A DNA stretch of 64,000 bases, taken from contig NC_080581.1 of the NCBI RefSeq assembly GCF_029962835.1, forward strand, positions 21,528,001 to 21,592,000, in the 5' to 3' direction. Position 1 is the stretch's first letter. Every line of letters starts with the position of its first letter. The DNA comes from Magnolia sinica. Lineage: Eukaryota; Streptophyta; Magnoliopsida; Magnoliales; Magnoliaceae. The notes under the pieces are model-generated. The model saw only the letters and a program-made list of their open reading frames with translations. It did no database searches and was not told the origin of the DNA. Position numbers and translations under genes: made by a program. Shown here piece by piece: positions 979 through 29,497 of the stretch.

Positions 979-1107
979 ATGAAAGAATACAAACTTTCTT
1001 TTGCAACTTAGACCTCCATGTGCGGAGACCGAATTTTAGGATGAAAATACCCCTCCTTTTTCCATACTCTTTTCACTGCAATGCTTTGAGCATTGCTTTC
1101 ACTCCCC
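979..1107 (+). repeat. Left terminal inverted repeat of the candidate MULE
   Basis: The outer 38 bp (ATGAAAGAATACAAACTTTC onward to GACCTC at 1016) match the reverse complement of 21478-21515 with one mismatch. Similarity is patchy after that and returns at TTTTCACTGC..TTGCTTTCACTCCCC (1074-1107). Confidence 0.6.
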
Positions 1108-1425
1108 TTAACGGAAAAAAAGCTGCTTCCAGCCCTACACTCTCTTGGAACGAAGAACTGAAGTACAAAGGGTTTTCTTCTCATTTTCTTGACTGAAATC
1201 TCTATGAAGCATCTAGATATCGTCATTCTACAGTTGCCATTTTTCATCTTGGCTAGGGTTACGTGAAATCCCACGAACTGATTGCATCTCCTTGAAAAGC
1301 TTCAAAATATTCCCTCACTCGAAAGCACCTCTCTTCAACCTGCATTTAACTGGTACTGCGGCAGTTGGAGGTATAAATCTTGAAAAAAACGCTAGACTCG
1401 TACAATGGCATTACATGTGAAGTTT
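1108..1425. other. Subterminal sequence between left inverted repeat and array
   Basis: No gene or recognisable site. It may be part of the terminal sequence of the MULE. Confidence 0.4.
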
Positions 1426-2061
1426 GGTCAATTCCATGTGTTAGGCTTAGTCAATTTCATAAGCTTAGTTAATTTTATGCATTGATCGATTGAATCCACA
1501 TCAAACTCGCTTAAGTCAATTTGAAGCTCACTCAATTCCATGTTAGGGCTCACTTGATCTCATGCTAGGCTTGTTGAATTCCATGTTTACCCTGCTCAAT
1601 TTCATGCTAGGCTCACTGAATTCCATGTTTACACTACTCAATTTCATGTTAGGATCACTCAATTTAATGTTTGCCCAGCTTAATTTCATGGTAGATAAGG
1701 TTAATTTAATGTTTGCCGTAATAAATTTCATGCTAGGATCGCTCAATTTAATGTTTGCCCAGCTTAATTTCATGGTAGATAAGGTCAATTTAATGTTTGC
1801 CGCAATAAATTTCATGCTAGGATCGCTTAATTTAATGTTTACCCAGCTTAATTTCATGGTAGATAAGGTCAATTTAATGTTTGCCTTGATAAATATAATG
1901 CTAGGATCACTGAATTTAATGTTTGCCTAGCTCAATATTATCCTATGCTCGCTCAATTTACAGTTTGCCCATTCAATATCCATGCAATGCTTGCTCGATT
2001 TAATGTTTGTTGGGCCATATCACAAAATCCATTCAATATCCATACTATCGCAAAAGAGCAT
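1426..2061 (+). repeat. 21-bp tandem array, left part 1, with 84-bp higher-order repeat
   Basis: Degenerate head-to-tail copies of a 21-bp unit of the form CTCAATTTMATGTTTGCCC plus two variable bases. The core is an 84-bp higher-order unit made of four 21-mers: equivalent starts fall at 1658, 1742, 1826 and 1910, exactly 84 bp apart. Because 21 is a multiple of three, stop-free units leave long open frames on both strands (1543-1872 minus, 1562-1930 plus). These read as heptapeptide repeats and I do not consider them genes. Confidence 0.9.
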
Positions 2062-2308
2062 GCTTTTTTTCTTTTTAAACAATAATATAACGAATTTTAT
2101 TAAAAGAAAAGGCCAAAAACTAAAAAAAAAACAAGACAAACTGATTGATACCCAACATATTAGTTGCATGAGCCCATTCTATAACATTTTTTTACCTGAT
2201 TAAAAGCTCCCATCGGAAAACCCCTGCTATTTGTGAAACTATTATAATTTCTCTCCATTCGTATTCCCCAAATACATGCTAATAAACATAGATACCATAT
2301 TCATCTCC

Positions 2309-5300
2309 TGTAACGCCCTCAAATTCGGGGGTCGAGCATAACTCAGCTCCCGAGTTTCAAAACATCACGTATGCAACATATTTAATGATGGATGTATGTT
2401 GTCTGTATTAGTGCATAAAACATGGAATAGATTAAGCCAAATTGCAAATATAATTCAGGGATAAGTGAAGAATGCAAGCGGAAGACTTATAGAATTATAT
2501 GTGTACATGTGTAAATCCCTGAAATACATATACATACCAGGTCGTAATACAAGTGTTGCTATTAAAATTACAAGTATCAAATTACATCATTTAATTCCTA
2601 AAAGAAATTCCAGTATCCCTCGCATCAGAACAAGGCTCACTAGAACCCGTCTGAAAACTGCATAAAAGAGAAAGCAGCCTCATCATCCTTGATCTCCCGC
2701 TCTGCCTCAAAGGTTGCATCAACATCTGCAATATTAGCAACTAAGACAGAGTCTGGTGGGTGTTTAACACCGCCCTAGAACGTGGGAGTGAGTGATTAAC
2801 TCAGTGGAACAATAAAGCAAAGGTTAACATGTTATCAGTTCAATCAAGCAGTAATAATAAAGCAGAACAATCAAATATGTCCTAAGTACTCTTGTTAATG
2901 CAAGGATGTATGAAGAATGATGTGTGCCCTCACGCGTACACCCTCAGCGTCTTCATCTTACGTTATGCATGACATCGCCTCAAAGTGCGCCACGTCTACA
3001 AAGCACATGCAAATGCGGTGCATGAACATGATTACCAAGTTGTTATTAGTCCTTTTCATACAGTAGGATTGGGAAGCTAAGGTACCTTCCTCATATCACC
3101 ATCCAGACAGTAATCCATTCTAGGGTTGTCAGTCCTAGATCATCTCATACGATCATGTGGTTTTAGGTCGTTGTAAAGGGCTCGTCACCAATCAATGCAT
3201 GCCTATCATACCTTCGTTACCACAATAAGGCTCGTCACCTCAATGCGGTATCCAGGCATGCTCGAGGTCACTACAAAGGGCTCGTCACCAATCAATGTAG
3301 GCCGACAGCACGAATATAGTGTCCCATACCACCATAATCGGCTCACGAGTTTGGTTGCTCACTGGTCACTACGGGGAAGCTCGTCACCCCAGCGTATGCC
3401 GACAGCTCGACCACGGTGTCCCATACCACCATGTCCGGCTCATGAGTCTTAGCGGATCAAGGTACCATGGTTAATAGGATTTCATCGGTAAGTTTGGTAC
3501 CCTAGATTCAAACAATAACGTCCATATATGGTGAACATACATCGGACAATCAGGTTACTTGACGAACTCGACTAGCACGAGCACACGTTGGGTTGAACGA
3601 CATAGAGTGCGCAAACACTCCGCGTGGCCAAACCATTGCCGACAACTCTAATACGACTCGGGTTCGTCTAATCATGTCCTACGTGGCGAAAGCAACCTTA
3701 GCCACAAACTTAAGGCCGATTACCAATTTTCTGGACTATTCATAGTCCCAAGCACATTCCACTATAACAGATATTGATATCAGCAATTTAGAATAGTAAT
3801 GAAACAACAACTCAAATCATATGGTACATGAGCATTTAAAGAATATCAACTTAACATGGATTCTCACATAAGTAATACTTGAAATTAAACAACAAGGAAT
3901 GTAACTTGCATGAAGTAAATCCTACACATCAATAGGAGTGTTGAGAATCGCTTCTCAACGCCCGCAAATAGTATAATATATTACACTTTAGTTCATTCAG
4001 GCATTTCTACAAACACTTAGAATACATAGTTTAACATACATGACATATGTTGAAATACACACATTTGGACAATTCCTTTTACCAAGGAGTTGTCACACAT
4101 ACAATTAGCATAGATACACAACAGATAATCATGGCAATCACATGTGCATATTTTATACGTATACGGTACTTTATACATATCCATAGAATACACAAAACTC
4201 AATATAACACATGCATATCAGGAACGCAAAATAAACATAGCATTTGGCATGTGAAATCTCATCCATAGCAAGAATAAACCATTCACTGGCATTGAAAGCC
4301 TTGAAAACCATAACCTATACGATTAAAGTCCGCACCTTAATCCAGAAAAGAACACCGAACTGATTTCAGACGATATGTTTTCGTCAACGGCGACAGGACA
4401 ACCTAAGGTAAGAATAGAAATGAGATAAAACATCACAAAGACTATTCTAAGCTCTAACACAGATTAGGATTAAGTTAACTTACCCAAAGATGAACTCAGA
4501 ATCGCCGGAATGACGATTCAAAAGTGAAGGTTTAAGGATGAAGAAGAACAGGAAAGAATCTAAGATGATTCACCAACTTCTCTCTCACTTTCTCTCTCTT
4601 TTCCTTTCTCTTTCTTAGCTAGGGTTAGGAAATTCGTATGGAAAAGAGAGCTAGGGTTTTAAGGTCTATATATAGGCCTAACATTGATGAAAATAACCCT
4701 AGGGCCAAGGTATACTTAGGGTATAACCAAAGCAAGCCTCTCTCGATCCAACAGAGCACTTCCAGTGGGCCTATTACCACGAAAGGTCGGACTTAAGCTC
4801 ACTGACCATGGATCTAGGTCAAGCTGAGTTTTCATACCGACCGGATCTTCAGATCAGCCGTGGCGGACCACACTCAATTCAACGGTCACCGAAACTCGAT
4901 CAGGTCCACAAGCATAAAGACATGCCTGGGCTACCTTCCCTAATCAAAGGGTGAAATTGGGTCAGAATCCAACGGTCAGATTGCTTAAAATTGTCGCGCA
5001 AGCGACACGACTCAGATTTCATAAAATCTTATTAAATTTCCAACCATTCTCACACTCTTCACTCCGAACTCAATCAAATCGACCCAGAACATCACATGGA
5101 CTTGATTTTTGAGGTGATGGTCAAGCCCAACATGGTGACCGCAACAGCCTAAGATCATCACCATCGGACTTTCGACGCGCGGTCCAGGTCAGATCTAGAA
5201 CTCCTAAAAATTCCCAAGAACAGTTGGATTTAGCGATGAATCCCGGATTTCAGAGTAACCTAGCGCCAACTATTCTACAGATTTTGAGTCATGCAGATCC

Positions 5301-5423
5301 AATTTAAAGTGATTGATGCAAATTTCACAAGCAATCGAGTTTAGCGCTAATTATCCCAAAAAGCTTCTAAGGAAAATAGAGGTAGTACTCGGGTCTTGGC
5401 ACAAAATTTTTCGGGTCATTACA
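2309..5423 (-). mobile_element. Solo LTR, chromovirus (Gypsy) type, about 3.1 kb
   Basis: It begins TGTAACGCCCTCAAATTCGG and ends GGGTCATTACA, with the standard TG..CA termini. It is flanked by a perfect 5-bp target duplication TCTCC (2304-2308 and 5424-5428). No gag, pol or second LTR is present inside, so it is a solo LTR left after LTR-LTR recombination, or a deletion form. Minus orientation is inferred: read that way it ends in GGGCGTTACA like related LTRs, and it has a TATATATAG box near 4667-4675 followed by purine-rich leader-like sequence (about 4560-4620). It split the left 21-bp array after that array formed. Confidence 0.85.
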
Positions 5424-5430
5424 TCTCCCA

Positions 5431-6425
5431 ACTTTACCCCATCAATTTCTAGTTTGCCCCGCTTAATTTTCAGTTTGCTCTGCTTAATTTCATGTTTCTC
5501 CCGCTCAATTTCATGTTTGCCTTGCTCAATTTCTAGTTTGCCGCGCTGAATTTCTAGTTTGCCTCACTGAATTTCATGTTTGCCTCGCTGAATTTATAGT
5601 TTGCCCCGCTCAATTTTCAGTTTGCCTCGCTCAATTTCATATTTGCCCCGCTGAATTTCTAGTTTACCCCGCTAAATTTCATGTTTGTCCCGCTCAATTT
5701 GTAGTTTGCCTCGCACAATCGAAATGTTTGCCTTGCTCAATTTCATGTTTGCCCCGCTGAATTTCTAGTTTGCCCTGCTCAATTTCATGTTTGCCCCACT
5801 CAATTTCTAGTTTTTCCCACTCAATTTCTAGTTTGCCCCACTGAATTTCTAGTTTGCCCCGCTCAATTTCATGTTTGCCTTGCTCAATTTCTAGTTTGTC
5901 CCGCTGAATTTCTAGTTTGCCCTGCTCAATTTCATATTTGCCCCGCTCAATTTCTAGTTTTTCCCGCTCAATTTTTAGTTTGCCCTGCAGAATTTCTAGT
6001 TTGCCCCGCTGAATTTCATGTTTGCCCCGCTCAATTTCTAGTTTGCCCGCTCAATATCCATGCAATGCTCGCTCGATTTAATGTTTGCCCTACTCAATAT
6101 CATGCTATGCTTCATCGAAGAAATTTTTGCCTAACTTAATTTAATGATATGCTCGCTCGATTTATCGTTTGCCGAGCTCAATATCAATAGCTGAATTTTT
6201 ATTTTGTCCTGCTCAATTTTCAGTTTGCACCATTCAATTTCATGCTTGCCGCACTAATGTTTCAGATTTTCCTGCTGAATTTTCTAATTTATCCCACTCA
6301 TTTTTCATGTCTGCCCCGCTGAATTTCTTATTTGCTTCGCTGAATTTCTATTTTGGCCTGCTCAATTTTTAGGCTGCCCTGCTGAATTTCATGTGTGCTC
6401 CGCTCAAACTGATAATGCTTCCCTC
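5431..6425 (+). repeat. 21-bp tandem array, left part 2
   Basis: About 45 copies of the 21-bp unit, well preserved at 5440-6050 (GCTCAATTTCATGTTTGCCC, GCTGAATTTCTAGTTTGCCC and intermediates) and decaying toward 6425. Orientation is the same as 1426-2061 and opposite to 14936-15455 and 18615-20729. It ends about 280 bp before the transposase start at 6702, where a promoter would be expected. Confidence 0.92.
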
Positions 6426-6701
6426 GCTCAATGGCATGATAGATAGCGTCACAAAATGAAACAAGAACCACTTGAAACCATTCGTTAACGACGAAGGCCT
6501 AATCTATATAAGATCTAGTTGTTTTTTTTTGTTTAATTTAAATGCGTATCTTACTGTTCATTTCCTTAGCTCTTTATCATCCTCATCTATAATAGAAATT
6601 GACCTGTCGGTCCTCCATTATTTAATCGAGTTTTGTGATATGGCATGGTTCCATTGATTTATGATTCATTGATAATGTGTCATTGTATTGGTTTTTAGAT
6701 A

Positions 6702-9025
6702 ATGGCTGCAAGAATCATGTGCTCTTTTGGCGGAGAGTTAGAATTTGAAAACAAGCGATACTCGTACACTGGTGGAACATCAAAACAAATGATGCTACGT
6801 CTCGATACTACGTACGAGGAGCTTCGATTTAAAATTTACAAGATTATTAAGAGCAAACCAGAAGATTATGATATTAAGATGAAAGTATTGAATCCTTGCA
6901 CTAACGAATCAATGCCTCCAATCGAAATTGAAGACGACGATGACGTCAAAGAGTTCTTGTCTCACCAGTTTGAGCATTCGGATAAATTCATCCCGTTAGT
7001 CATCGACACAGTGCAACACATCAATACCACAACATATGTGGACAGTGTGGCTAAGTATGGCGTGGAATTCAAATACATCCTTCTCTATTACAAGTGGTAG
7101 TAAGCAATGATCAATTACCCGAGCCGCCGCAAACTTCAAATGTCGTGACTAGCCAAGTCAGTGGTAGACTTGACATTAACAGTAATTATAAATACAAGCC
7201 ACCGCCATTAGCATCAACAACAGATCTGCCATCATTATCCACCATCCCACTTGTGTATGTAAGCGACATTCCGTTTCGAGACCTTCCCAATACATCAAAC
7301 CTCATGACTTGTCAAGTTCTCGCGCCGTTTGATGATGATGCACTCACCAATGCAAAAATGCTGGAATATACTGATTTGTTGTGTGAACCGACCGATATAG
7401 CTGTTGGGCAAACGTTTAAGGACAAGAGTCGGTGCCATTATGTTCTGAGCCAATTTGCAATTCAGAATAATTTCTAGTATAGAGTAATATACTCAAATTC
7501 GAGCAGGTTTACCGCGATCTGCTTCGAAGATGCATGCAAATGGAGGGTTCATGCATCTCGGGTGAATGATACGGGCATATTCAAAATACAAACTTATACA
7601 TCAAAACACACGTGCGACATGGCATGGATGAAGAGCGATCACCGGCAAGCCAACAGTAGGCTAGTGTGTGATTTGGTTATTAACCACATTGAACAACGCC
7701 TAGGGTTGAGGCCACGTGATATTATCTTCGCCATGCAAGAGAAATATAATATTCATATAAGTTATTGGAAGGTATGGAAAGCTAGGGAGCTTGTAATTAA
7801 TCACGTGATGGGGTCTTATGAAGACTCCTATAATCAACTCCCTTTGTATTTGCAACAGTTGAGGAGGGCCAACCCAAGGACAGTTACTGCGGTGCTTGTT
7901 AACCAACAGACTTCTAGGTTCGAGAGATGTTTTGTAGGCATCGGACAATGCATTCGAAGTTTTTAGAAATCATTGCGGAGGGTATTGGCCATTGACGGGA
8001 CACACTTAAAAGGCAAATACGAGGGTGCTCTATTCATCGCCACGGCCTTAGATGGGGACAATCATATATTTCTAGTTGCGTTTGACATCGGGGAATCAGA
8101 GAATAACAGTAGTTGAAATTGGTTCCTTACCCATCTTAATAATGTGTTAGGGTCTGTGAAGGGTCTTGTCATTATATCCAACCGACATAAGGGTCTAATG
8201 AAAGAGGTTCCCCAAGTCTTCCCGCGTGCAATCCATGGGTATTGTGCATACCATATCTACAGGAACTTGGTGGACACTTTTAAGGAGAAGTCGTTGGAGA
8301 TGTATTATTGGATGGCTATGAAGACTTGCAGGAGGGCCAAATTCAAAAAAATTATACATGATAGCGAAATGGCCAATCCCCCAGTACATGTATGGCTAAC
8401 AGAAATCGAGTACGAGAGATGGGCATCTTCGCACTTTCCAGGCCGAAGATTCAACTTGGTCACGACAAACATTTTTGAGTGCGTTAATGCCCTTTTTAAA
8501 GATGCACACAAATACCCCGTTACGAAATTGATAAAGGCTATAATGTTGAAGATACAAGATTTTTTTTACAAGAGACGAGAATCTGTGGCATCATTTGTTG
8601 GTCCATTGACACCATGGGTGGAGAAACAGTTAAAGGATATTGTGCAGAAGGCTCGAGATCTTCGCTGCCATGCTATTTCTCGAGATGAGTACTATATTGT
8701 TGGAGATTATAATGATACGGTGAAGCTCAGTGAGTTTTCATGTACATATCATGAGTTTGGCGTGAAGGGCTACCCTTGTATGCATGTCCTGTCAGCTTGC
8801 ATAAACTATAATCTTCCTCACTACTCATACTGCTCCCCATTCTACACGGCGCATAATTACCTGGCCACGTATAGCGAATCGGTGTATCCAGTACACGACA
8901 AAAGCGAGTGGAAAATTTCAGTGGGGATAAAGGAGTATTGTGCGCAGATTAAACCCCCAAGCAGAGGAGGTCAGCTGGAAGACCCAAAAAGCTTAGAATT
9001 CTATCGCATGGAGAGGAATCGATAA
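6702..9025 (+). pseudogene. MULE transposase (MuDR family), inactive
   Basis: Four open segments read in order. 6702-7100 is a PB1-like N-terminus (CSFGGELEF.., YTGGTSKQ). After a frameshift near 7060-7094, the other three lie in one frame: 7094-7477 with the start of the MuDR DNA-binding region (FKDKSRCHYVLSQFAI), 7562-7966 (CDLVINHIEQRLGLRP), and 8144-9025 with the MULE transposase domain and a SWIM-type finger. In-frame stops interrupt it at 7475-7477 (TAG), 7964-7966 (TAG) and 8114-8116 (TGA). The first catalytic Asp (AIDGTHLKGKY, codon 7994-7996) and the Glu (NIFECVNALF, codon 8477-8479) remain. The second Asp of the family motif SDRHK is Asn here (codon 8180-8182). The second Cys of the SWIM finger is Tyr (CTYHEFGVKGYPCMH). 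The family cuts and pastes DNA at terminal inverted repeats; this copy cannot. A start at 6702 fits the usual CSFGGE N-terminus. Confidence 0.93.
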
Positions 9026-9692
9026 CAGTAAAGTGTGGGTGATGCAAATAAACCGGGCATAATCGCCGGTCGTGCAAGTTTCCGATACCCGATGTATAAT
9101 ATATCGTGTAATTTATGTACTTTGGATGATACATAGTTTGTAATTGTGCCACATATTCAATTTATGAGTAATTTCCAACAACCTGCGTACCAAAGTACTT
9201 CTATATGGGAGCCAACTCGATAAAGCAATAGAAGTTGTCCAACGAGTAGCAAATAATATATGGTATCCACCAAAAGAGAGGAATGAGGTGAAAAAAATGT
9301 CTAATCAAATCATATTAGACAAACTTGGAAAAACTGAACCAATCTGGTTTCATCATCACGTCATATCGCTTAATCTGGGAGCAAGATTGCCATGACGTAA
9401 TGCACACCATTGAAATCCATCAACATTTGAAAGGTCAATGAAATTGAGAACATGCAACATAACATGAAGTGCATAAATAACATGAAGTGCATAAATAAAT
9501 TTCAGCGGGGCACCACATACTGTAATCAAAATAAGTACCCCAAGTTTGGGCACTAAAATCAATGTCCCCTTCATCAGTCAAAGTAAAATTCACCCCATGA
9601 TCTAAAGAAACAGTTCGAAAATAATATCATATAGGCTTGACATACCAAAAAGATACTTAATGCACAAGCCAACAAACATGACTAAAACTAGT
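9026..9692. other. Spacer between convergent MULE genes
   Basis: AT-rich and without a recognisable gene. It separates the 3' ends of the plus-strand transposase and the minus-strand plant-transposon protein, so it should contain both 3' UTRs. A short direct repeat, ATAACATGAAGTGCATAAATA, is visible near 9460-9498. Confidence 0.5.
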
Positions 9693-10995
9693 CTAGCTAG
9701 ACGGACCGCCAACTGGAAGAGCGACATCATCACGCCGGCAGGTGATTGTGGCAATAAGGTTGTCAATTTTACACTCGACCCGGTCGATACCCTTCTGGAT
9801 GGCCTCAGAAAGCTGCTCTAGTCGTGTTAGTCATCTATCCTGCTCATCTATGTGCCTAACAATATATGCCCTGCAGTTGTGGTATGGCATCCTTCGACTG
9901 GTATGACCATATGAGGGTCGTGGCACCTCACGCTGCTCTCCCTCCGTAGGATAGTCGGTGTCGGCTGCCTCTGTCTCAGCCGCGTCCGTCTCTGCAGCCT
10001 CTGTCTCCGCTGCCTCTGCTTCTGTCTCTCCCATCAAAACTTCACTGCCTCACTGATGCTGATGCCCCTTTCGTCCCCAGTTTCATGCGCTTGATGTTGT
10101 TTTGTGTAAACATTTTCACAGCTCTGGGTCGGTCAGTGGTGGGCATCAGGCCAACATGACGGGAGAGTAAACATAGTAGGTGTGGGAATGGAATGCATGT
10201 GCTTCTCGTGGTCATTATGCTGTCGGCGATTATTTGAGTAATGATGGTGGGCAGACACAGAGGAATACCATGACAGATGCTGTATCGAATGTCTAACATA
10301 TACGACGTAATGTCAGACCTATTCAAGTCCCTCGGATAAACATTCAAGCAAAAGATATTGTGTAGCACCTTGTACTTGGCTTCCAGGTGCGTTGCTCTTA
10401 GTGCATTACCCTTATTCCATGGAACATTCTAACCGTTACAAAAATACTTCGTCATTTCTATCCGTACAGCTGGGTCATCAATGTCGTGATCAGTTAAGCC
10501 TCGAGCTGTGACTGGAATCCCTAAAAGCTGTGCAACTACCCCAGTATTAATGGTGGTGGAGTTCTCTCGAATGGTCACCTGAAATAAAGGAGGGTGAATT
10601 ATCGGCGAGTGACAATATGATAGAAATATGATCACTTGCTCATTTCGAACCATCCCTCCAAAATCTAAGAGGCTACTCCACCCAACATTCTCCAAAATCT
10701 GTGGAATCCCAAACTGATGGATGCATGCTCAATCAACCTTTTTCTCATATACAATTTTTCGGGCACAATTTTGTCGTACATGTTCACAGGAGGAGGAGGA
10801 ACCTGCGGGATCAGTTGTTCCGGCTGGATTGGTGGAGGGGGGGTCTTGAATTGGAGCACTCCTGTGAGTACAAGCTCGCCTAATCGGCGACTCGGTCGGG
10901 GAAGTCCGTTCCGATCTAGGTCTTGATCGGATTTTTATACGAACTCCCCTGGATGACTCTCCAACCATAAGCTTTTTTCCTTTATCCTTAGCCAT
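9693..10995 (-). pseudogene. Putative plant transposon protein (PTTP-type), inactive
   Basis: Read from ATG at 10993-10995 (MAKDKGKKLMVGESSRG) to a stop at 9693-9695. It has a basic, proline-rich N-terminus, then the core with FGIPQILENVGW and VVAQLLGIP, then LPTIITQIIAD..FPHLLCLL. An acidic repeat of ETEAAETDAAE follows, and last a short possible coiled coil (LEQLSEAIQKGIDRVE). This order matches the family annotated in plant genomes as 'putative plant transposon protein', whose function is unknown. Breaks: frame changes near 10800-10860, 10720 and 10040-10060, and in-frame stops at 10429-10431 (TAG) and near 9828-9830 (TGA). It is convergent with the MULE transposase and on the same strand as the ULP-like gene, which suggests all three were cargo of one element. 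Family assignment is by pattern, not by search. Confidence 0.7.
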
Positions 10996-12480
10996 TATGA
11001 CTGTTGCGATGATATTGCCTGTTTCAAACAAAGGAAATGATAAAGTAAACTCAAAATTGAGAATATATATTCCTGTCCAATTCATGATTTGTCATTGAGC
11101 AGTGAACTAATGTATCTATATAAATCATTTAACGATTATCTAGAAGAACTCCGCATGGGCAATTGTAGCACAACTTGTAGTACCATACCATACTTCATAC
11201 GAACATGCCACTTCTATATGAAATCAGCTCCATTCACATCTATTCACAAAAGCATACAATGATTCTTAATATCTCATTGAAAATTATTAATGATGGAGAT
11301 GTTCTAATTTCTAAATTTCTATTTCCTTTAGTCTACAATGCCTTAGTTATCTCATGTGATCGTGGATTTCTAATTCTAACAATTAACTAGTAATGACCTG
11401 CAGAAATTACAACTATCTAAACAACTAAAAGAATTATAAAAATAAGTTCAATTGGAGATAAGTTCTAGTTCCTTTAGAAAGGGTTCATCTTATGGGGGTA
11501 TCTTCTGTGAAACTAAAACCATTTAGAGCTTTACAGGAACTCTGAATTACTTAAAAATTTTATATATGGCGTATAAGTAATTCAAGTTGATCTTTACAGA
11601 TGACGGGTCCCGCTTTGGAAGTAACACAAAAAATTATGCTTGTTTGATTATCTGATGGACATTTATCAGATGGTTAAAAATAAAAAATATCTGATGGTCC
11701 TAATAAAACATCTACAAGTGTCCACAAATCAGAGGTTAGGATTGTTCAAGCGGTCTTGTTTTGGAGCATTGACTCGGACAATGGGTTCTTCCATTTAGTT
11801 AGTTTAATATGAGTTGATGTATGCCACTGATACAGTTTCTGAGTGCCCGAGTATCAAGCCCCATGCTTGAAAATCAAACTAATCAAGCATAACAACCATC
11901 CAATTAGTTTAATTTTGCTTGTATCTGTTCCCACCTGCACTTATCCCTCCTTTCTACTTTCTATATTTGCCTTTTGGTTTAGATTTCGTAGCAGTAGTAA
12001 GGAATGAAACTCCTCTTTGGGATAACTAAATCACCAGCCTTAGGTCATGTTTGGTAGACATCTAAAAATGATTTTGTCTCATTTTAGTTAACAGTAACTA
12101 CGTATTTGAGATCTTAATCTCTGATATATAGTGAGTTCATGTTAACAATAATTAATAAATCATTTCTACTTCAACAACTCTATTTCCGTTTTCAATTTGA
12201 ATAAAGAAGCTAAAATCCGATTGACAGATTGAAAAATAGAAGAAAGGACAAAAGGGGTTTCCATCATCGACAAACTCGGCATTTCATGAAAATTGCAATG
12301 AACAAAATCTTATCGAGATCGTCGTAGAAGAAATCCCTCAAACCAGAAGGTTGCTTGCGTGGAGAAATCCGTTGGAGATGAAGATGATGCAACATTTTGG
12401 AAGATGGAGTTGAAAGAAATGGGGGTATGGAGGGTAATAAAGGATGGTTGGTGAAAGCAGTTAATGCAGTTTGAACGTGT
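10996..12480. other. Non-coding stretch inside the candidate MULE
   Basis: AT-rich, with no protein, RNA gene or clear repeat recognised. It lies upstream of the PTTP-type gene and would contain its promoter. Confidence 0.5.
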
Positions 12481-13235
12481 CATCGATGTTATCGACAGCT
12501 TGTTGATATATCGATGTTTGATCAACGATATATTAACAGGTTTTAGATATATCGAGAATGAATTTGAACCGTCAACTTGGTGGACAGTTACAATATGGTG
12601 TTGATAGTATCAAGATATTATCGATATATCGATAAACTATTGAATTTTAGATGTTCGTTGTTGGACACTAACAGCCATAATTCGATATTATCCACAAGCT
12701 GTCGATATATTGATATATCGATATATCGATATTATATGAAAATCCATTGATGCTTGCTGGATAATTGTCATCCAGTTTCGAAATTATCGACACAATATAG
12801 ATATTATTAATGACTTACGTCGATTATTCGACGATATGTCGATCGGATCTATAACTTACGTCCATGATATCGATGATATGTTGATATAATCGATTTTACA
12901 TACATGATTGCTTTATACGTATATATCATCGACATATTGTCGATGTATCCATCGTCATCGTTGATATGATCGATAACTTGTCGATATATCGACAAAATAT
13001 GGAATTTGTGGCATTGGTTTCTGGACACTAACAGCCATAATTCGATATTATCCACAAGTTGTCGATATATCGATATATCAATAAAGTTTCGAGATATCGA
13101 CATTATATGAAAATCCATTGATGCTTGCTGGACAATTGTCATCCAGTTTCGATATTATTGACAAATTGTCGATATGATCGATGACTTACGTCGATAATAT
13201 AGATGATATGTCGATGTAATCGATTTTACGTATAT
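12481..13235. repeat. TATCGA-rich repeat with 360-bp tandem duplication
   Basis: Dense, degenerate copies of TATCGATA / TCGATATATCGA fill the block. A 360-bp duplication is superimposed: GGACACTAACAGCCATAATT occurs at 12663 and 13023, and the following 130 bp (TATGAAAATCCATTGATGCT, then TTGTCATCCAGTTTCG) match in register. ATGATATGTYGATRTAATCG also repeats (about 12874 and 13204). Open frames here are by-products. Confidence 0.85.
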
Positions 13236-14935
13236 ATTTGTAATTTTATTTTATGTTTTTTTATTTTATGTTTTTTGTTTTTTGTTTCAGTTAGCTTGTT
13301 GTACACACCCATGTCAGTACACACCCTCCATGTTAGCCATCCCCACTAGGGATCGATACGAAGATGAATAAATTCCATCCTTGTTGGGAGTATTTGAAAT
13401 TTTATTAAGACGAAAAAGTTGGGGTTGTATTGTAGCACTATGGATCGATACGAGGGTGAATAAATTCCGTCCTTGCTTTTAGTGTTTGTATTTTTTAGCA
13501 ACCAGCGAAGGAAAATATACCTAAATAAGACTTTAATTTCACTAACGAACTATAGAGGTGTCCCAAAGGAATAATTTATGGATCTTCTAAGGAATGCTTT
13601 GAATGATGCTCGAAATGTTCGTTCCACTAATCCCCGGTGATTAGTCTGGACGATTTTTCTCTCATAAATTTCAGGTTTCTTTTTTATATGCTCTTCTCGT
13701 GGCACTTAAACCCATGATCTCAGTGTTAAAATGCACTTTCTACTACTAAGCCATGAGGTTGGAACCCTAGTTCCTGTATTAATTTTCCTTTCTTCTGATG
13801 TTTTTTTTTTTTTTTTACTTAAATTCAAATAATTGTGAAGAGATAAATGAGTTGGGATGTGACAGGGATAAAACCCTTATCCTGTTAGAATCTAGAATCA
13901 TGTTCTCTTCTTGATCCATCCGTTTTAGAGAAACTCTATTTATGCATAAGCATTAAAAAAAAAAAAAAAGAGAAGAAGAAGAAGAAGACAAATTGAGAGG
14001 AATAACTATAGAATATGTGATGGTCCATTAAGATCTTGCTATATAATTGATTGTATTTAATGGTCATTCTAACTATGAATTAAGTAGGTGATTAGTTTAT
14101 TTTCACTCTCGCAATAGTTAGTCAAATCGCTGAACGAGAATTGTTTATTTTAAACTTCACCAAAGTCTTAAAAATATATAAATGCCATCAGGGGTTGTTT
14201 GGCACCATGAATTTAGGAGGGTTTGAGGGGATTTCAAATCTTCTAATATGTTTCGCACCATAAGGTAATTGGGGGGTTTCAAATCCAAGGGATTTGAAAT
14301 CCAAGGTGAAAGCATGGATTACATTTAAAATCATTTCAAGAGTTGCATGCGTAATGTATGTGCCATAGGCTACTAATCTATTGGCCACATGGCTCCTCTT
14401 CTTAATACGATGACTCCTCTTCCTCCGAACTAGTTTGAATTGATGCAAAGCCATAGAAAAATGCTATTGTACAGAAGTTGCAGTGGATCCAACATCTTAC
14501 AGAAGATATTATTCAGTTTACTCTTTCCTTCCATGTGGCCTATCAAGTGACTCTATTTGGGTCATGCCGAGTCGAGTGAGTTGTGTTGTGTTGACTGATA
14601 TATTAGTATACAAGGCTCTGGGACTACACTTTGGAGATATCCATGTTGTCACTGTGACTTACATCGGGGATTTGGAGAATGTCATTGGAAATTCTTAATA
14701 TGCTATTTTTCTTTCCAACAAAAGGGCCGCAATCATTGACAGATGAGATGATGAACAATGATTTTGATGGGGACATGTACTAGGTGTTAAGAAATCGTGG
14801 GGTTCGTAACCATTCCATATTAGTTTATTAAGTAGAGAAAAGTCGAAAGAAATGCAGAGAATGCATTGGCTCCTTACCCCTAGCTCGAACATCAACCTCT
14901 AAAGCTGTATCGACGAACAGCTCCTGTAACATCAA
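13236..14935. other. Non-coding stretch with small repeats
   Basis: No host gene recognised. It holds a T run at about 13799-13818, an A/GAA-rich tract at about 13955-13990, and a hAT-like MITE end around 14189-14310 (CAGGGGTTGTTTGGCACC followed by inverted copies of GGGATTTGAAATCC). Confidence 0.5.
13690..13772 (-). repeat. tRNA-like (SINE-type) fragment
   Basis: On the minus strand GGCTTAGTAGTAGA resembles a Pol III A box. About 30 bp further, GATCATGGGTTTAAGTGCC resembles a degenerate B box. This spacing is typical of tRNA-derived plant SINEs. No tail or target duplication was identified. Confidence 0.35.
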
Positions 14936-15455
14936 CCACTCAATAGGAATTGAGCGGGGCAAAATAGGAATTGAGCGGGGCAAACATGAAATTTAGCGGG
15001 GGAAACTAGAAATTGAGCGGGGCGAACATGAAATTCAGTGGGGCAAGCATGAAATTCAACGGGGCAAACTTGAAATTGAGCGGGGCAAGCATGAAATTCA
15101 GCGGGGTAAGCATGAAATTCAGCGGGGCAAGCATGAAATTCAGCGGGGCAAACTAGGAATTGAGCGGGGTAAACATGAAATTCAACGGGGCAAACTAGGA
15201 ATTCAACAGGGGAAACTAGAAATTGAGGGGGGCAAATATGAAATTGAGCAGGGCAAGCATGAAATTGAGCGGGGAAAAATAGAAATTTAGCGGGGCAAAC
15301 ATGAAATTTAGCGAGACAAACTTGAAATTCAGCGGGACAAGCATGAATTTGAGAGGGGCAAACATGAAATTCAGTGGGGCAAGCATGAAATTCAGCGGGG
15401 CAAACTAGGAATTGAGCAGGGAAAACATGAAATTGAGTGGGGCAAACATGAAATG
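14936..15455 (-). repeat. 21-bp tandem array, middle block (inverted)
   Basis: About 25 copies of the same unit in minus orientation (GAAATTGAGCGGGGCAAAC plus two bases). Some copies read AAGCATGAAATTCAGCGGGG. It starts about 215 bp beyond the 3' end of the ULP-like gene. It leaves a 232-codon open frame (14932-15630, minus) that reads as repeats of FHVCPAE/FLVCPAQ; I treat this as an artefact of the 21-bp period. ATGTATA-rich repeats follow at 15455-15590. Confidence 0.92.
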
Positions 15456-15671
15456 TATACAACACAATGTATATCCAACAATGTATATAACATAATGTAC
15501 AATGTATACAACAGGAAATGGTACATAAGTGAGACAACAATGTACAATGTATATTCAATAATGTGTAAAATACAATGTATATAGTACAACATTTCAACAA
15601 AATTGCTCCCATGCCCTTAACAAATATCATCTACAGACTAGAGACAAGCAGTCATATTGTATTGACTTCCT

Positions 15672-18577
15672 CTAATCAGTAGTGAATTTTTGCATGTCTA
15701 TTCCTGCTAAGGTGAGACTACTACACAAAATGTCGATGTATTTCAATACGAATATACCGCAGTAATAATCATTGTCCTGCTTCGGCACTGATTCATCGAC
15801 TCTGACGGTCCATTTCTTCCCTTCAAGCGTAGTGCTGTCTCCAGTGACATGAAAGAGGATGGGGAGTGCATCGGTCATCTTCCTCATCGTATGCTTGTAC
15901 TTTATTAATGGATTTGTGCTTAAGCTATCCACAATAACCATTTCCCTCTCTTGGATATATGAACAACAAAAACCAATGTGAATTTTCATGGTTTATGGGC
16001 GCATACACTTGTCCATGATTGAAAAAATAATATATTAGTAAAAAATGAATAGAACACAACACTCACAGAAGAAGTTCTGGGACGAGTGCATTACCCGTTC
16101 ATAACACCAAATCTCTTTGGTGTATGGTCTATCTCGCTGCTTCACAATTGCGTAGACCGAGTTCAGCTCGACTATTAGCTCGGCCCATTCTGACGTTGAG
16201 TTCGATGCCCAGTATGCGATCAAAACCGGCAAACACCTCTCAATCATTGGCTGTTACAGACAGACATGATCAAAGATCAATACATGTAAGAAGTTGAAAA
16301 AGTGAAACATATTTAGTATTGTCCGAATTAAACAGTCACCATAAAAAATGTTGGACAAAACTTGCAATCTTGAGGATAGGCTATTGCCAGGTCGATCCGC
16401 CTCTTCTCAAGGAAATCGATGTATTTGTTGATAGCATAATCAATAGGATAGTATGATTTAGCCATATATTAATATAACAAATAATTACATGTCAATCAAT
16501 GCATATAGAGAATAAATTAGTGATGCCTACCACGCTATCAACCCACGCATCCTTCACCCATATCGTACCAAACTAGGAGTAGGCTGCCGTGGCCTTGTTC
16601 GCTTCATACCAATCCTCTACCTCTTTCAATTACTTTGCAGATAGTATCCTGAATGGATCCATCTGTAGAGGAAATGGTATCGGAGTAATGGCAAAACTTG
16701 TTGCAGCCTTAGGTTCGAGAACCAAACCAGGGGTTGTATCAAATGCAGACAGGGACAAGTATGGAGAAACCTTATAAATTGATGGCTTCAGTACCCTTAT
16801 GGGTCTTCTCTGATAGACGGGATGAGAAGTGGATGTATCCAATACATTACCCTTGGCGAAACCAAACGTGTGCACATCGAAATCCCCATGCATGAAGCAT
16901 TCTTTCTCTTTAATATCATTTTCTTCCCCTCTCTTCAACTCCTCACCCTCCTCCTCCATCGTACAATCTTCCTTCTCCTTATTAAACTCCTCTCTCTCCT
17001 TCGCTAACTTTTCTTTCTCTTCAAAAAATAAATCATTCTCCCTTTTCAATGCTTCTTTCTCTTTCAGTAACGCCTCCCTCTCAGCAACCCTCGCTTCTTT
17101 CCTTCTCAAGTCTTCCTTCTCTTTCCTCAATTTTTCCCTCTCCTTCTTCAATTCCTCTCTCTCCTTCTTCAACTCTTCCTTCTCAACCCGGAATTCCTCC
17201 ATAAGAATAATATCCCCCCTCGGTCCCTCTCCCTCCACGCCTTTCTCAGTATTTTTGCCCTCTTCGTCTGATTCATCTTTCTCCTCATGATCACTCTCAT
17301 TACCCTCTTGCTCATCTTCCTAGGTCTCAGTGAGTTACAAAGTGTAACGATGGGTGTGTAAGAGGAATGATACCTTTACAAAAGCAGAAAAAATATAGTT
17401 CATTTTTTCATAACATCTTACCTGGAAACTTTCACGAACTGATCTCACCGCATTCGTTTCCCATTCTCGAAGGGTCGGTTCTAATTTCATTATTACTGAT
17501 GTTTGCAAAAGAACGAAGAGTATTGTTAAATATAAAAGCGTATACCTGTTAGAATTAAGCAAAATAAATGCCAGAGAAATATATTAACTTACAACTTTAT
17601 TTTCGAGAATAACATATATTTTGTTGTACCTCTAACCCTTTCAGCCTCGATATTGATTGAAGCGTGGAATTTGATGGGGAACATACGAAACAACACACTC
17701 TTGCAGGGCAGGTAGTATCTCTACTGCCCATACCTGTTAGAATGAAATTGCACCGGGTTAAAAATCCATAATTGAATATAGAGGATAAATATATAAAAAA
17801 TAAAAGGTGTTCTTACTTGTAGAGGAAGGAGGCAACCACATACAGTGTACCGAGGGGCACTTGATGCGGCAACGCCAGATTTTATTCCTTACGACGTTGT
17901 ATAGTACCCCAAACTACCCCAAGAATAGCTATATAAATCATCTAGCGAGTCCACCAAGTGAATATAATCCATGTTGCACATGGTTTTTGGTTCAGTTCCC
18001 TTGAGAAAGAACTCTACAACGAGGAGTAGGGCAACCTTCACGAACTCTACAACTAGGAGTATGGCAACCTTCACGACATCCTCGTGCTTCTTGCTGTCAA
18101 CTAATCTATAAAAAACATCCATTAGGTCCTTCTTTAATACTAGATATTGCTAGAAGTATTTGTCTCTTAATGTACTCATAGTGCCATAAATTTTCGGTAC
18201 AGTAAGATCTCCAGTCTTAAGGCCCGTAATGAGGGTGAATCCATCTCGGTAAACTGCACTCGTCTCCCTCTGATCTTAAATACTAGATCACCTTTATATC
18301 GTTGAAAAAGAAGGTGAAATAGAGCCTCTAAAAATCTAAAGGATGTAGCATGTAATAGAAATGAAAAAGGGGATTGGCTAAACAAATTTAGTCGACTATC
18401 GTGCTTTTCCAATCCACCCTTCACCTTCTCAAACCACCATTTCAGTGTACACCTAGAGGTTGGGTTGGGGATTACAACAGAATATTCGTCACCTGCAAAG
18501 ATGAAAATGAAAAACATATCAAACATAAAATTCACAACATAAACATACTGTACAAAATCAGAAATAAATGAAAACAA
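15672..18577 (-). pseudogene. DUF1985 / coiled-coil / Ulp1-protease-like gene of the kind carried by MULEs, decayed
   Basis: Read right to left. 18577-17889 is a DUF1985-like region (RLNLFSQSPFSFLLHATSF, LITGLKTGDLTVPKIYG, SLDDLYSYSWGSLGY) with a frameshift near 18235-18245 and a TAG near 18150. 17238-16630 is a charged coiled coil of KEREELKKEREKLRKE type followed by a linker. 16620-16250 has exon-like fragments (AINKYIDFLEKRRIDLA). 16247-15672 is a C48 (Ulp1/SENP) domain end, with VIVDSL and VPKQDNDYYCGIFVLKYID, which contain the family's Asp, Gln and Cys sites. The residue before Cys is Tyr where DCG is usual, and the His motif (KIHIGF) is atypical. The family cleaves SUMO-like proteins; activity here is doubtful. 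Introns are likely but not resolved. Arrays of the 21-bp repeat lie on both sides. Confidence 0.78.
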
Positions 18578-18614
18578 TGTAGCATTTCATGAATTTGAAC
18601 AAGGTTCATATGAA

Positions 18615-19560
18615 ATAGAGATAGAAATTGAGCAAGGAAATACCAGAAATTTTGTAATACAAACTATCAAAATAAGTGAGGCAAACATGAAATTGAATAG
18701 GACAAACTAGATATTCAGCGAGAGACACTGGAAAAACAGTGGGGCAAGCTGAAAATTCAGCGGGCCAAACTGCAAAATTGAGGGGCAATTACATGAAATT
18801 GAGCGGGGCAAACATGAAATTGAGCAGAGTGAACTAGAAATTCAGCAGGGGAAACATTAAATTGAGCGGGGCAAACTAGAAATTCAGTGGGTCAAACTTG
18901 AATTTCAACGAGGGAAACTTGAATTTGAGTGGGGTAAACTTGAAATTTAGCGGGGTAGACTTGAATTTGAGCAGGGCAAACTTGAAATTTAGCGGGGCAA
19001 ACAAGAAAATGAGCGGGGCAAACATGAAATTCAGCGAGGGGAAAAACATGAAATTCAACGGGGGAAACTAGAAATTAAGCGGGGCAAACTATGAATTCAA
19101 TGGGGCAAACTAAAAAATCAGCGGGGGAAACATGAAATTGAGCGGGGCAAACTAGAAATTCAGCAGGGGAAACATTAAATTGAGTGGGGCAAACTAGAAA
19201 TTCAGCGGGGGAAACATGAAATTGAGTGGGGCAAACTAGAAATTCAGCGGGGGAAACATTAAATTGAGCGGGGCAAACTAGAAATTGAGCAGGGTAAACT
19301 TGAATTTTAGCGAGGAAAACTTGAATTTGAGTGGGGTAAACTTCAAATTCAGTGGGGCAAACTTAAATTTGAGCAAGGTAAACTAGAAATTCAGCGGGGC
19401 AAATAAGAAATTGAGCGGGGGAAACTTGAATTTGAGCGGGGCAAACTACAAAATCAGCGGGGCAAACTAGGAAATCAGCGAGGCAAACATGAAATTGAGC
19501 GGGGGAAACGTGAAATTCAGTGGGGCAAACTAGAAAATCAGTGGTGTAAACTTAACAGAT
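18615..19560 (-). repeat. 21-bp tandem array, right part 1 (inverted)
   Basis: About 44 copies of the 21-bp unit in minus orientation, immediately upstream of the ULP-like gene. At 19134-19285 two variants alternate (..TTGAGCGGGGCAAACTAG and ..TTCAGCGGGGGAAACATG), forming a 42-bp dimer. Read inward, it mirrors the left array next to the transposase. Confidence 0.92.
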
Positions 19561-20065
19561 AAGTTCATGTATGGAGCCCAAAAACTAAATGTATCCAATG
19601 TTCAAATGGACCACACCACATGAAAATTTTGAATTGAACTTCTCATATTTATCATTTCTTAGGGGCCACAAAAGTTTTAGATCAAGCTTATAATTGTGTT
19701 TTCTATTAATCCATGTCTATATGATCTTATGAATAGGTTTGATAATAAGCAAACATCACTGTTGGGCCCACTATGGTTTTAACGGTGGAAATCATTATGC
19801 CCACTATTTCCCGTGGTATGATCCACTCGATCTTTTGATATGCTTCAGTTTAGGGCTACACGGCTAAGATTAGATGGAAGAACGGATGAACGTCGTGGAT
19901 ATACTACATACATTCAATGTGGGCCCATATGACTTTACTTAGTACAATGGGAGCGGACTGACTAACTCAGTACGCAATCCGATTATGCTTGCTATGATGT
20001 TTTATTTGTAATACATCATATTCATCAGATTATGTATACACCAAAACCCCATATGTGGGAGGGAA
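19561..20065. mobile_element. MITE remnant inside the right array
   Basis: A non-array stretch interrupts the 21-bp repeats. Its right part (about 19900-19982) reads TACATTCAATGTGGGCCCA, then ACTCAGTACGCAATCCG. In reverse complement this matches the end found at 42206-42290 (CGGATTGCG..ACTCAGTACG..GGGCCCAC). The left end is not recognised, so it is truncated or diverged. Confidence 0.5.
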
Positions 20066-20729
20066 CCTATATATTGAACAGGGCAAACATGAAATTCAAC
20101 GGGGGAAATAGAAAATTCAGAGGGAAAAACTGAACAATGAGCGGTGTAAACATGAAATTCAGTAGGGGAAATATGAAATTCAGCGGGGCAAACTATGAAA
20201 TTCAGCAAGCCAAACTAAAAAATCAGCGGGGCAACCTAGAAAATCAGTAGGGGAAACATGAAATTGAGCGGGGCAAACTAGAAATTCAGTGGGGGAAACA
20301 TGAAATTGAGCGAGACAAACTAGAATTTCAGCGGGGGAACATTAAATTGAGTAGGGCAAACTAGAAAATCAGTGGGGAAAACTTGAATTTCAGTTATGGA
20401 AACTTGAATTTGAGAGGGGCAAACTTCAAATTCAGCGGGGCAAACTTCAATTTGAGTGGGGCAAACTAGAAATTCAGCGGGGCAAACAAGACATTGAGCG
20501 AGGCAAACTTGAATTTTGAGCAGGGCAAATTACAATATCAGTGGGGCAAACTAGGAAATCAGCGAGGCAAACATGAAATTGAGTGGAGGAAACATGAAAT
20601 TCAGCGGAGGAAACTTGAATTTGAGTGGGGCAAACTACAAAATTAGCGGGGCAAATTAGAAAATCAGCGAGACAAACATGAAATTGAGTGGAGGAAACAT
20701 GAAATTGAGCGGGGCAAACTAGAAAATCA
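20066..20729 (-). repeat. 21-bp tandem array, right part 2 (inverted)
   Basis: About 31 further copies of the 21-bp unit, same orientation as 18615-19560, with more substitutions. The last recognisable unit ends near 20729, where a truncated MITE begins. Confidence 0.92.
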
Positions 20730-20734
20730 TTATG

Positions 20735-21237
20735 CCCATTGTGTTCGGTGCTTTGTGGGCCCCATCATGATGTATGTGTTTCATCCATGCTGTCCATCTA
20801 TTTTTATAAATCATTTTCTGATATTATATAAAAAATAAGGTATATCTTGATCTCAATTGGACCACATTACACGAAACAGTGTTTCATGAACATCGACCAT
20901 TAAAAACTTTTTGGGGGTCATAAAAGTATTGGATCAAGATGATCTTTGTTTTTAGACTTCATCTAGGTCTTTATGACCTAATAAACAGATTGGATTTCAG
21001 ATAAGCAGTATAGTGGGCCTCAGGAGGATTTAAATGATGGATATCCAATCACTATTGTTTTCCTGTAGTGTGGTACATCTAAGATTTATATCCCTCTTAT
21101 TTTTAGGATGAAGCCCTGAAATGATCTTTACAAATGGATGAACGGAATGGTTGAAACACATACATCATGGTGGGGCCCACGGAGCATCGACCACCAGCCA
21201 CGGGGCTGGTGTCAGGGGGAGTAGCCAATCCGTTTTC
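20735..21237. mobile_element. Truncated copy of the 30879-31424 MITE family
   Basis: It matches the MITE at 30879-31424 through its interior (TCGGTGCTTTGTGGGCCCC; ..CACATACATCATGGTGGGG) to the right terminal repeat (CAGGGGGAGTAGCCAATCCG). The outer left terminal repeat is missing, and the copy abuts the 21-bp array directly. Confidence 0.75.
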
Positions 21238-21388
21238 TATACTACATACATTCAATGTGGGCCCAACTGAGTTTAAAATATACCTGTGGTGCGTGATTTC
21301 TTCCCTGAACCGACAATTTTTGGAAGAAGACAAAATGCTGAGGCCCACAAAATGAGTTTTTTTTCGTCTTTCTCATGGAACCGAGCGT

Positions 21389-21412
21389 GGGGGGGGGGGG
21401 GGGGGGGGGGGG
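21389..21412 (+). repeat. Run of 24 G
   Basis: Uninterrupted G homopolymer located where the left inverted repeat has only CCCC. It could form a G-quadruplex; its length may also be affected by sequencing or assembly. Confidence 0.95.
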
Positions 21413-21515
21413 TGAAAGCAACGAGAAAGTAGCAGTGGAAAGGGAGATAAAAATCAAACAGTGAAAAGGGAGAGGAAGAGGTCTAATTTGCAAAAGAAAG
21501 TTTGTATTCTTTCAT
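21389..21515 (-). repeat. Right terminal inverted repeat of the candidate MULE
   Basis: The outer 38 bp (21478-21515) match 979-1016 in reverse complement with one mismatch. Looser similarity continues to the poly-G run. Confidence 0.6.
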
Positions 21516-22071: not shown

Positions 22072-22090
22072 TTCTTCTACTTGGGCCTCA
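22072..22090 (-). other. Copia polypurine tract
   Basis: On the minus strand, purine-rich AAGTAGAAGAA directly precedes the 3' LTR, as expected for the plus-strand primer. Confidence 0.7.

Positions 22091-27953: not shown

Positions 27954-27958
<5 letters not shown>

Positions 27959-28008
<50 letters not shown>
27959..28008. repeat. GA microsatellite
   Basis: About 24 AG/GA dinucleotides in the copia leader, nearly perfect. Confidence 0.95.
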
Positions 28009-28013
<5 letters not shown>

Positions 28014-28935: not shown

Positions 28936-28988
28936 CCTGATATGATCAGATATAGCTGGATGTGATCATCCATGCCTATGCACAGGAC

Positions 28989-29000: not shown

Positions 29001-29002
29001 AC

Positions 29003-29492: not shown

Positions 29493-29497
29493 GCCCG

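Follow-up and report, generated by a model that had tools for sequence, protein, structure and literature searches.

The locus analysed here, in Magnolia sinica, raises the question of what kind of element is enclosed by a 38-bp inverted repeat, and why that element carries arrays of one 21-bp unit in both of its arms. Within the 64,000-nucleotide stretch that was analysed (the window), positions 979–1016 and 21478–21515 form this repeat with one mismatch and with looser likeness inward to ~130 bp; a 36-bp pattern taken from it matched twice in the window and had no match in 100 shuffles. The initial annotation had read the repeat as the edge of a Mutator-like element (MULE). The repeat with its looser extension, the arrays and the genes were all found to be real, but the edges were wrong. 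The true left terminus is at 934, where the outermost 45 bp of the element's terminal inverted repeat (TIR; 934–978, + strand, beginning GAGAAATTTAGGAC) adjoin position 979 from outside. This outer block was present in all 25 other left ends that were read, and the sequence outside it diverges. The inner part of the left TIR (979–1060, +) is identical to the right end at 37 of 38 positions, and inverted-repeat comparison placed the rest of the right TIR at 21478–21515 (−), with its outer 45 bp missing. When the window was searched for the outer block with up to 15 mismatches in 45, it was found at 934 alone and was absent at the right end. The right terminus of the window copy is truncated at ~21515. 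No target duplication was visible at 979/21515 in this copy, because the left end had been misplaced and the right end is truncated.

Genome-wide searches with the ends recovered other copies, some of which have both ends, internal arrays and 9-bp duplications outside. In a pairing test limited to the best 40 left and best 40 right ends and to distances of up to 45 kb, eight of nine left/right combinations lying inward of the left end were inverted, with ~0.02 expected by a rough calculation. Seven inverted pairs besides the window were thus available, and both outer ends were kept in six of them (C5 has no right outer end). The 9-bp flanks agreed at 9/9 positions in copy C16 and at 8/9 in each of C2, C56 and C9 (for C9, with the better of two left ends); in C4 they agreed at 8/8 only with a 1-bp offset and at 1/9 without it, and in C3 at 2/9. 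None of 30 mismatched pairs, compared with no offsets, exceeded 6/9. The family inserts with 9-bp target duplications, as seen in the sister copies, and the evidence that had formerly been missing for a Mutator-like element is now at hand. In two full copies, of 20,766 and 19,129 bp, the gene order and the mirrored arrays (+ on the left, − on the right) are as in the window, and the TIR measures 127–130 bp at 89–93% identity, extending to ~176/215 bp when gaps are allowed. The window element is an old, broken copy of this ~19–21 kb TIR-type MULE family of M. sinica. The alternative that the 38-bp repeats are dispersed ends with no relation to each other, such as MITE ends in random pairs, which bracket the region by chance, would agree with the missing duplication at the window copy; however, it is already refuted by the sister copies, given the inverted pairs, the one perfect and three 8/9 duplications and the gene order common to two full copies, and we give it practically no weight.

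Some copies were less complete. A compact copy (L027, ~10.6 kb) has both outer ends and a stray + array, and neither a 9-bp duplication nor a match to the C48 (Ulp1) domain was found in it. Loci L009–L012 are short copies with a common left flank that matches transposase sequence; they show no duplication because their right flanks differ. In the window copy, a solo LTR of 3,115 bp (2309–5423) is a later insertion, with the 5-bp duplication TCTCC on both sides, and a Copia LTR retrotransposon (21595–29497, −; duplication GCCCG) lies just outside the element and is not part of it.

As initially annotated, a plus-strand transposase gene and two minus-strand genes lie between the arrays. The MULE transposase gene (6699–9025, +) contains DBD_Tnp_Mut (35.9 bits, cut-off 25) and MULE/Transposase_mut domains (Transposase_mut 27.9 bits, cut-off 21), and a PB1-like N-terminus that is below the cut-off. 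The MULE domain itself scored 26.0 bits in the window piece, below its cut-off of 27.6, and the homologues P0002 and P0005 gave 66.4 and 59.6 bits. The gene is broken in the window copy, since it contains in-frame stops and frame changes. The dN/dS of the DNA-binding piece was low, at 0.25–0.29. The second gene (10042–11091, −) is similar to Transposase_32 (PF20167), with a score of 32.7 bits that does not reach the Pfam cut-off of 45. Maize MuDR also has two arms with inward-reading genes; to our knowledge, it has neither arrays nor a DUF1985-Ulp1 gene.

The remaining gene (15672–18586, −), which is spread over several frames in the window copy, has a predicted DUF1985–coiled coil–Ulp1 (C48) order. 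C48 was detected in the window and scored 65.8 bits in C2, and DUF1985 was detected in an adjoining frame of the sister copies (44.4 bits in C2 and 42.3 in C16, cut-off 35.1); a Pfam search of the window ORF 18176–18586 gave no match even at E 10. P0016 (802 aa), a homologue annotated in M. sinica, combines DUF1985 with C48 and matches window positions 18490–15633, and the SHW, VDS and QDNGYDCG residues are kept in P0016 and in the aligned copy C2. The dN/dS of C48 is likewise low (0.16–0.28) and near that of the transposase piece, and a value of 0.60 was obtained for DUF1985 in the only pair measured. The linker between the domains is a repeated EREELKK-type region, for which the predicted model gives one long helix; the predicted structure of P0016 has a mean pLDDT of 45 and is confident over a long stretch in the helix region 361–490 only. 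Judged by its predicted domains, the right-arm gene fuses DUF1985 to Ulp1 (C48) and so has the architecture of the VANC/KIU anti-silencing genes of VANDAL MULEs. VANC proteins are described as DUF1985 proteins that bind to short motifs, which are found in tandem repeats ahead of VANA and within VANB/VANC introns, and the variable regions of the proteins carry tandem peptide motifs (PMC5735166); Ulp1 is reported in some VANCs (KIU) (PMC13317346). A MULE with a ULP-like gene had at first been regarded as unusual, and this view did not survive, as ULP genes were already published in both TIR- and non-TIR-MULEs (PMC2528002; PMC13317346).

Repeat search and a weight-matrix scan located five arrays of the 21-bp unit: A1 (1553–2009, +); A2 (5442–6404, +), directly upstream of the transposase gene; A3 (14948–15454, −), internal, flanked by the Ulp1 gene and the second gene; A4 (18680–19553, −), 5' of the exons that encode DUF1985-Ulp1; and A5 (20081–20729, −). 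The scan counted 142 units in these five clusters (12, 37, 24, 40 and 29), with isolated matches once within the element (11041) and three times in the rest of the window; 20 dinucleotide-shuffled 22-kb stretches gave a mean of 1.35 units and a largest count of 3. The initial description of one unit, + on the left and − on the right, was correct, but its placement of the arrays at the extreme ends was not, as they begin ~0.3–0.7 kb inside the left terminus and one is internal. Among 20 left loci (15 distinct flanks), 19 have a + array of 8–53 units ~0.3–0.7 kb inside the left terminus, with L028, which has no array near the left end, as the sole exception. Together with the same layout in sister copies, this indicates that the arrays belong integrally to the element, in mirrored form. 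No array occurs in the terminal ~0.3–0.7 kb of the left loci, nor in ~0.9 kb on the right side of C16 and C2.

In the full copies, the arrays stand on the 5' side of genes and on each gene's own strand, and for this reason they look mirrored. The transposase start follows the + array in 13 of the 20 left loci, at a distance of 87–294 bp in all 13. Spacing is close for the transposase and DUF1985-Ulp1 genes; A3 and the second gene are 1.7–3.9 kb apart (3.9 kb to its open frame in the window, with A3 upstream). As to whether A4 and A5 are intronic, the first-exon peptide of P0016 was sought in the right arm and gave no convincing match.

By analogy with VANC, it is possible that the DUF1985-Ulp1 protein encoded by this TIR-MULE targets in cis the element's own arrays, placed 5' of genes on the gene strand, and we estimate the probability of this at about 0.5. 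The transposase gene reads inward from the left end and the minus-strand DUF1985-Ulp1 gene inward from the right, with the second gene also on the minus strand. The arrays would serve as high-density binding sites for the DUF1985-Ulp1 protein, a putative VANC/KIU-like sequence-specific anti-silencing factor. Loaded on the 5' noncoding regions, the protein might lift methylation there and so keep both arms transcribable. The 21-bp unit is close to two turns of B-DNA, and therefore every site would be on the same face of the helix. Against this reading, the VANC21 motif YAGTATTAY did not occur in any of three full copies, and its two occurrences in the window lie outside the element and are no more than chance would give, although target motifs vary among VANC families. 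Other points against it are the lack of clear constraint on the units (described below), the dN/dS of 0.60 for DUF1985, the TIRs in place of the non-TIR ends of the cited VANDAL/KIU elements, the distance of A3 from the second gene, and the deviating copies L028 and L027.

The arrays may instead be functionless minisatellites that grew by slippage close to the ends and were copied between the arms by gene conversion or inverted duplication. Such an origin, to which we assign about one chance in four, is consistent with the wide variation in length of the first left array (8 to 53 units) and with a ~213-bp non-array block that borders A4 (19545–19756, −). An inverted copy of this block lies beside a left array in C16 and C2 (92–93% to the window block), and arm against arm the two copies are 93–94% identical within each of C16 and C2; thus, segments may have moved between arms. 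When five loci were aligned, divergence was 10.9% in units and 6.1% in neighbouring non-array DNA; the unit positions taken as core diverged by 6.0%, equal to neighbouring DNA, and the most variable positions were mostly C/G, so that there is no clear constraint beyond C/G decay. Against this origin, the same unit stands 5' of genes on the gene strand in the full copies, is kept in all but one left locus and precedes the transposase start at short distance wherever that start follows an array.

Inversion between the two arms is also what would be expected of transposase-binding or foldback-type subterminal repeats that help to bring both ends together, comparable to those of FB/FARE/Tm1-like MULEs or to the subterminal repeats of CACTA elements. 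In Tm1 MULEs, tandem repeats of 13–15 bp occur within the TIRs and the duplications are 9 bp long; FARE, as cited in the same account, holds a MULE transposase (PMC3169594). On the other hand, the Magnolia arrays start interior to the TIR and reach ~6 kb inward in C16 and C2, one is located mid-element beside the Ulp1 gene, and no array occurs within the TIR proper. We regard this explanation as rather unlikely. A fourth explanation takes the arrays for directional modules, acting as promoters or enhancers through host transcription factors, or for siRNA targets, with no link to DUF1985-Ulp1. It would fit the way array strand follows the downstream gene, and tandem repeats have been discussed as siRNA sources and RdDM targets (PMC10398659); it leaves the coincidence with a DUF1985-Ulp1 gene unexplained, however, and appears quite improbable.

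The Arabidopsis VANDAL/Hiun and KIU (Kaonashi) elements also combine a MULE transposase with a DUF1985 gene, with Ulp1 too in KIU, and share arrays of tandem motifs ahead of the transposase gene and a variable repeated linker (PMC5735166; PMC13317346). They are described there as non-TIR MULEs, although some Brassicaceae relatives do have TIRs (PMC6446971). In contrast, the Magnolia element has clear TIRs, a magnoliid host, arrays in both arms and a 21-bp unit without YAGTATTAY, and its anti-silencing role is putative; it is not classed as a VANDAL here. The ULP-carrying TIR-MULEs of grapevine and melon share the TIRs, 9-bp duplications (where found) and a Ulp1 gene that follows the transposase gene in either orientation, whereas the main text of PMC2528002 makes no mention of tandem arrays. 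Tm1 Mutator/Foldback elements of root-knot nematodes and Arabidopsis FARE resemble the Magnolia family in their MULE-type transposase and inverted tandem repeats in both arms, and Tm1 also in its 9-bp duplications (PMC3169594; FARE as cited there). However, the Tm1 TIR is largely made of repeats and the ~130–215 bp Magnolia TIR is not built of 21-bp units, and the DUF1985-Ulp1 gene is present in Magnolia. Since its terminal repeats are not made of units, the element is not a classic foldback element of the FB/FARE/Tm1 kind, of which the initial annotation had been reminded; the inverted arrays in the two arms do match that kind. Rehavkus likewise has 9-bp duplications, and a minisatellite precedes its 3' TIR, but it is described from arthropod and annelid hosts, with one ORF, a PHD finger and the minisatellite at the 3' end only (PMC6446971).

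Sequence-specific transposon anti-silencing has so far been worked out in Arabidopsis. Should the encoded DUF1985-Ulp1 protein target the arrays, anti-silencing would extend to a magnoliid TIR-MULE. The precise function of the Ulp1 domain was called unknown in a 2026 review (PMC13317346), and its role could then be studied with protein and targets in one element. We consider it possible, at somewhat less than an even chance, that a non-eudicot TIR-MULE carries a self-contained anti-silencing pair, consisting of a DUF1985-Ulp1 protein and mirrored arrays of 21-bp, two-helical-turn targets before its genes. If so, the VANC/KIU-type system would predate eudicots and would not be tied to the loss of TIRs, and, with many copies in one genome, the co-evolution of array and protein would be directly measurable.

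The initial annotation placed the ends of the window element, a broken copy of a Mutator-like element (MULE) with terminal inverted repeats (TIRs), at 979 and 21515, bracketed by a 38-bp inverted repeat. The repeat was confirmed, with a single mismatch, and the left end had to be moved outward. Searching the 1.84-Gb assembly, in which the window occupies contig C9:21528001-21592000, with 979-1110 gave 942 first-look candidates; the best 40 were scored and all matched the query. We read 20 of the 39 matches outside the window over 10 kb, a set that is biased to relatives of the window copy because the query came from it, and that has only 15 distinct 9-bp flanks, so that some loci are not independent. 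The 45 bp outside 979 were found in all 20 left loci (0-8 mismatches) as a block that starts with GAGAAATTTAGGAC or a variant and beyond which the flanking DNA diverges; the block was also present at five further left ends, read at short length. Because these 45 bp are kept in other left ends before the flanks diverge, the true left terminus is 934. The outer 45 bp are missing at the window right end, which stops at 21515, and were present on eight of nine fetched right ends (one of the eight with 7 mismatches). A short segment immediately internal to the 38 bp also seems to be missing from the window right end, since most matches in the right-end genome search (40 of 267 candidates scored) did not start before query position 36. 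Just inside this end, at 21389-21412, are 24 consecutive G.

The initial annotation pointed to paired ends elsewhere in the genome, with a 9-11 bp duplication outside them, as the evidence to look for, and such copies exist. Eight inverted pairs, the window included, lay within 45 kb among the best 40 left and best 40 right places (one direct pair), versus ~0.02 expected by a rough calculation. The full copy C16 has TTTCTGTGA at both sides (9/9), and the sister pairs C2, C56 and C9 match at 8/9, in C9 with the matching one of two left ends chosen. C4 matched 1/9 as aligned and 8/8 when shifted by one base, no duplication was seen in C3 (2/9), whose right end is diverged, and the right outer block is absent from C5. 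None of 30 mismatched left/right combinations, used as a control, was above 6/9 (offsets excluded), and random 9-mer pairs reach at least 8/9 at a rate of 0.0003. The C9 pair (L035, L040; C9:61018600-61060550) has two left ends close together before one right end, 41 kb apart, and therefore represents nested or rearranged copies. No target duplication was found for L027, a compact copy of ~10.6 kb, despite the presence of both outer ends.

The arrays of a 21-bp unit described in the initial annotation were recovered, five in all, by a weight-matrix scan and, independently, by Tandem Repeats Finder. The scan placed 142 units in five clusters within the window element, an exact count that depends on the matrix, which was trained on the window arrays; isolated matches numbered one inside the element and three elsewhere in the window, and 20 dinucleotide shuffles of 22 kb gave a mean of 1.35 (largest 3). 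A solo LTR of 3,115 bp (2309-5423, duplication TCTCC) interrupts the left arm, and a Copia element (21595 to ~29497, duplication GCCCG) lies to the right of the MULE. At 34319-35984, a 34-bp GGCCCAT-type unit forms long, degenerate tandem arrays, in which the 21-bp unit had no matches. A 569-aa open frame at 40149-41858 presumably resembles a DUF247-type plant gene.

Both full copies, C16 (20,766 bp, 172 units) and C2 (19,129 bp, 201 units), were read whole, with genes placed by tblastn and arrays by unit scan. Their order is that of the window: left TIR, + arrays, transposase (+), second gene (-; Transposase_32-like, below cut-off), - array, Ulp1/linker/DUF1985 gene (-), - arrays and right TIR. 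Long DNA alignments support this common order where shown; among those listed, window 5885-13630 aligned with C16 at 86.6%, and C16 6147-10848 and 14765-20923 aligned with C2 at 92.0% and 87.0%, respectively. The TIRs of these copies are 127-130 bp at 89-93%, extending with gaps to ~215 bp, and contain no 21-bp array. When the arms were compared with units masked, one further inverted block (~213 bp, 93-94%) bordered one left and one right array, and no block occurred in direct orientation. One arm may have acquired array-containing segments from the other, or both may have received an insertion of one and the same sequence. In C16, a duplicate of the initial part of the second gene sits between the first and second left arrays (copy positions 2028-2447, L019; 87% DNA identity to window 10906-11290); it also occurs in C2, L014 and L020.

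Across the family, a + array of 8-53 units begins at locus positions 478-845, ~0.3-0.7 kb inside the terminus, in 19 of the 20 left loci; in L028, it is absent from the region near the left terminus. The transposase starts 87-294 bp after a + array in 13/20 loci, every one of the 13; L009, L010 and L012 have it only as a piece ahead of the terminus, and none was found in the loci read for L015, L020, L021 and L028. On the right, - arrays lie between the second gene and Peptidase_C48 (C48, the Ulp1 domain) in L023 and L024. The right part read of L027 holds a - array close to the end, a stray 5-unit + array and no C48 match. The rearranged loci L014 and L015 have arrays on both strands. For the second gene, the distance from its start to the nearest array ranges from 1.7 kb in C2 to 3.9 kb in the window, which makes this gene the weakest case of an array preceding each gene. 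Four short copies, L009-L012 (positions 1-201 and 156-~2980; to 7024 in L011), have a common left flank matching transposase sequence, whereas their right flanks differ, as would be seen if the mobile unit began further left and carried two left ends. Identical 9-bp left flanks within the pairs L023/L026 and L027/L028 suggest segmental duplications.

The right-arm gene in the window is a piece with C48 at 32.3 bits (cut-off 20.7); in sister copies, DUF1985 exceeded its cut-off of 35.1 with scores of 44.4 and 42.3 bits, and the C48 score was 65.8 bits. An annotated M. sinica homologue, P0016 (802 aa; DUF1985 54.8 bits, C48 74.0 bits), aligns to window 18490 down to 15633. A repeated EREELKK-type linker separates the two domains and is predicted as one long helix (361-490 in a P0016 model that is mostly unusable elsewhere). 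Ulp1 proteases are expected to have His, Asp, Gln and Cys residues; in the alignment, C2 and P0016 retain these positions, and the window C48 piece appears out of frame around His. A 33-bp tandem duplication at 18009-18076, inside the DUF1985 coding part, reads in-frame as an ~11-residue repeat in the window copy. When estimated by a simple counting method from short segments of broken copies, dN/dS was 0.16-0.28 for C48 and 0.60 for DUF1985 (one pair). A 162-aa transposase piece starting in the DNA-binding domain gave 0.25-0.29, the transposase piece after it 0.44-0.51, and a piece of the second gene 0.68-1.11. Of 15 transposase homologues, 13 were from M. sinica, the magnoliid host of the window element.

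Individual parts of this arrangement have precedents in previous studies: Ulp1 in grapevine TIR- and non-TIR-MULEs (PMC2528002) and, as cited there, in melon TIR-MULEs; tandem repeats within MULE ends in Tm1, with FARE cited in that work (PMC3169594); and a minisatellite near one end of Rehavkus (PMC6446971). A literature search, with most subscription papers outside its coverage, found neither a description of this Magnolia family nor any TIR-MULE that combines DUF1985-Ulp1 with arrays in each arm. In Arabidopsis, two reports (PMC5735166, PMC10398659) describe VANC of VANDAL21, a DUF1985 protein, as binding a short motif and inducing loss of DNA methylation; the motif clusters in tandem repeats that are located upstream of VANA and within VANB and VANC introns, and VANC proteins contain variable regions in which peptide motifs recur in tandem. 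Some VANCs (KIU) contain an Ulp1 domain, whose capture was placed at the monocot-eudicot separation in another study (PMC13317346). Against a similar role as targets, the 21-bp unit is without clear selective constraint, and the VANC21 motif is absent. Because the same set of parts as in VANDAL/KIU occurs here within a TIR-MULE of a magnoliid, however, we hold it most likely, at about even odds, that the 21-bp arrays are targets of the DUF1985-Ulp1 protein encoded by the same element.
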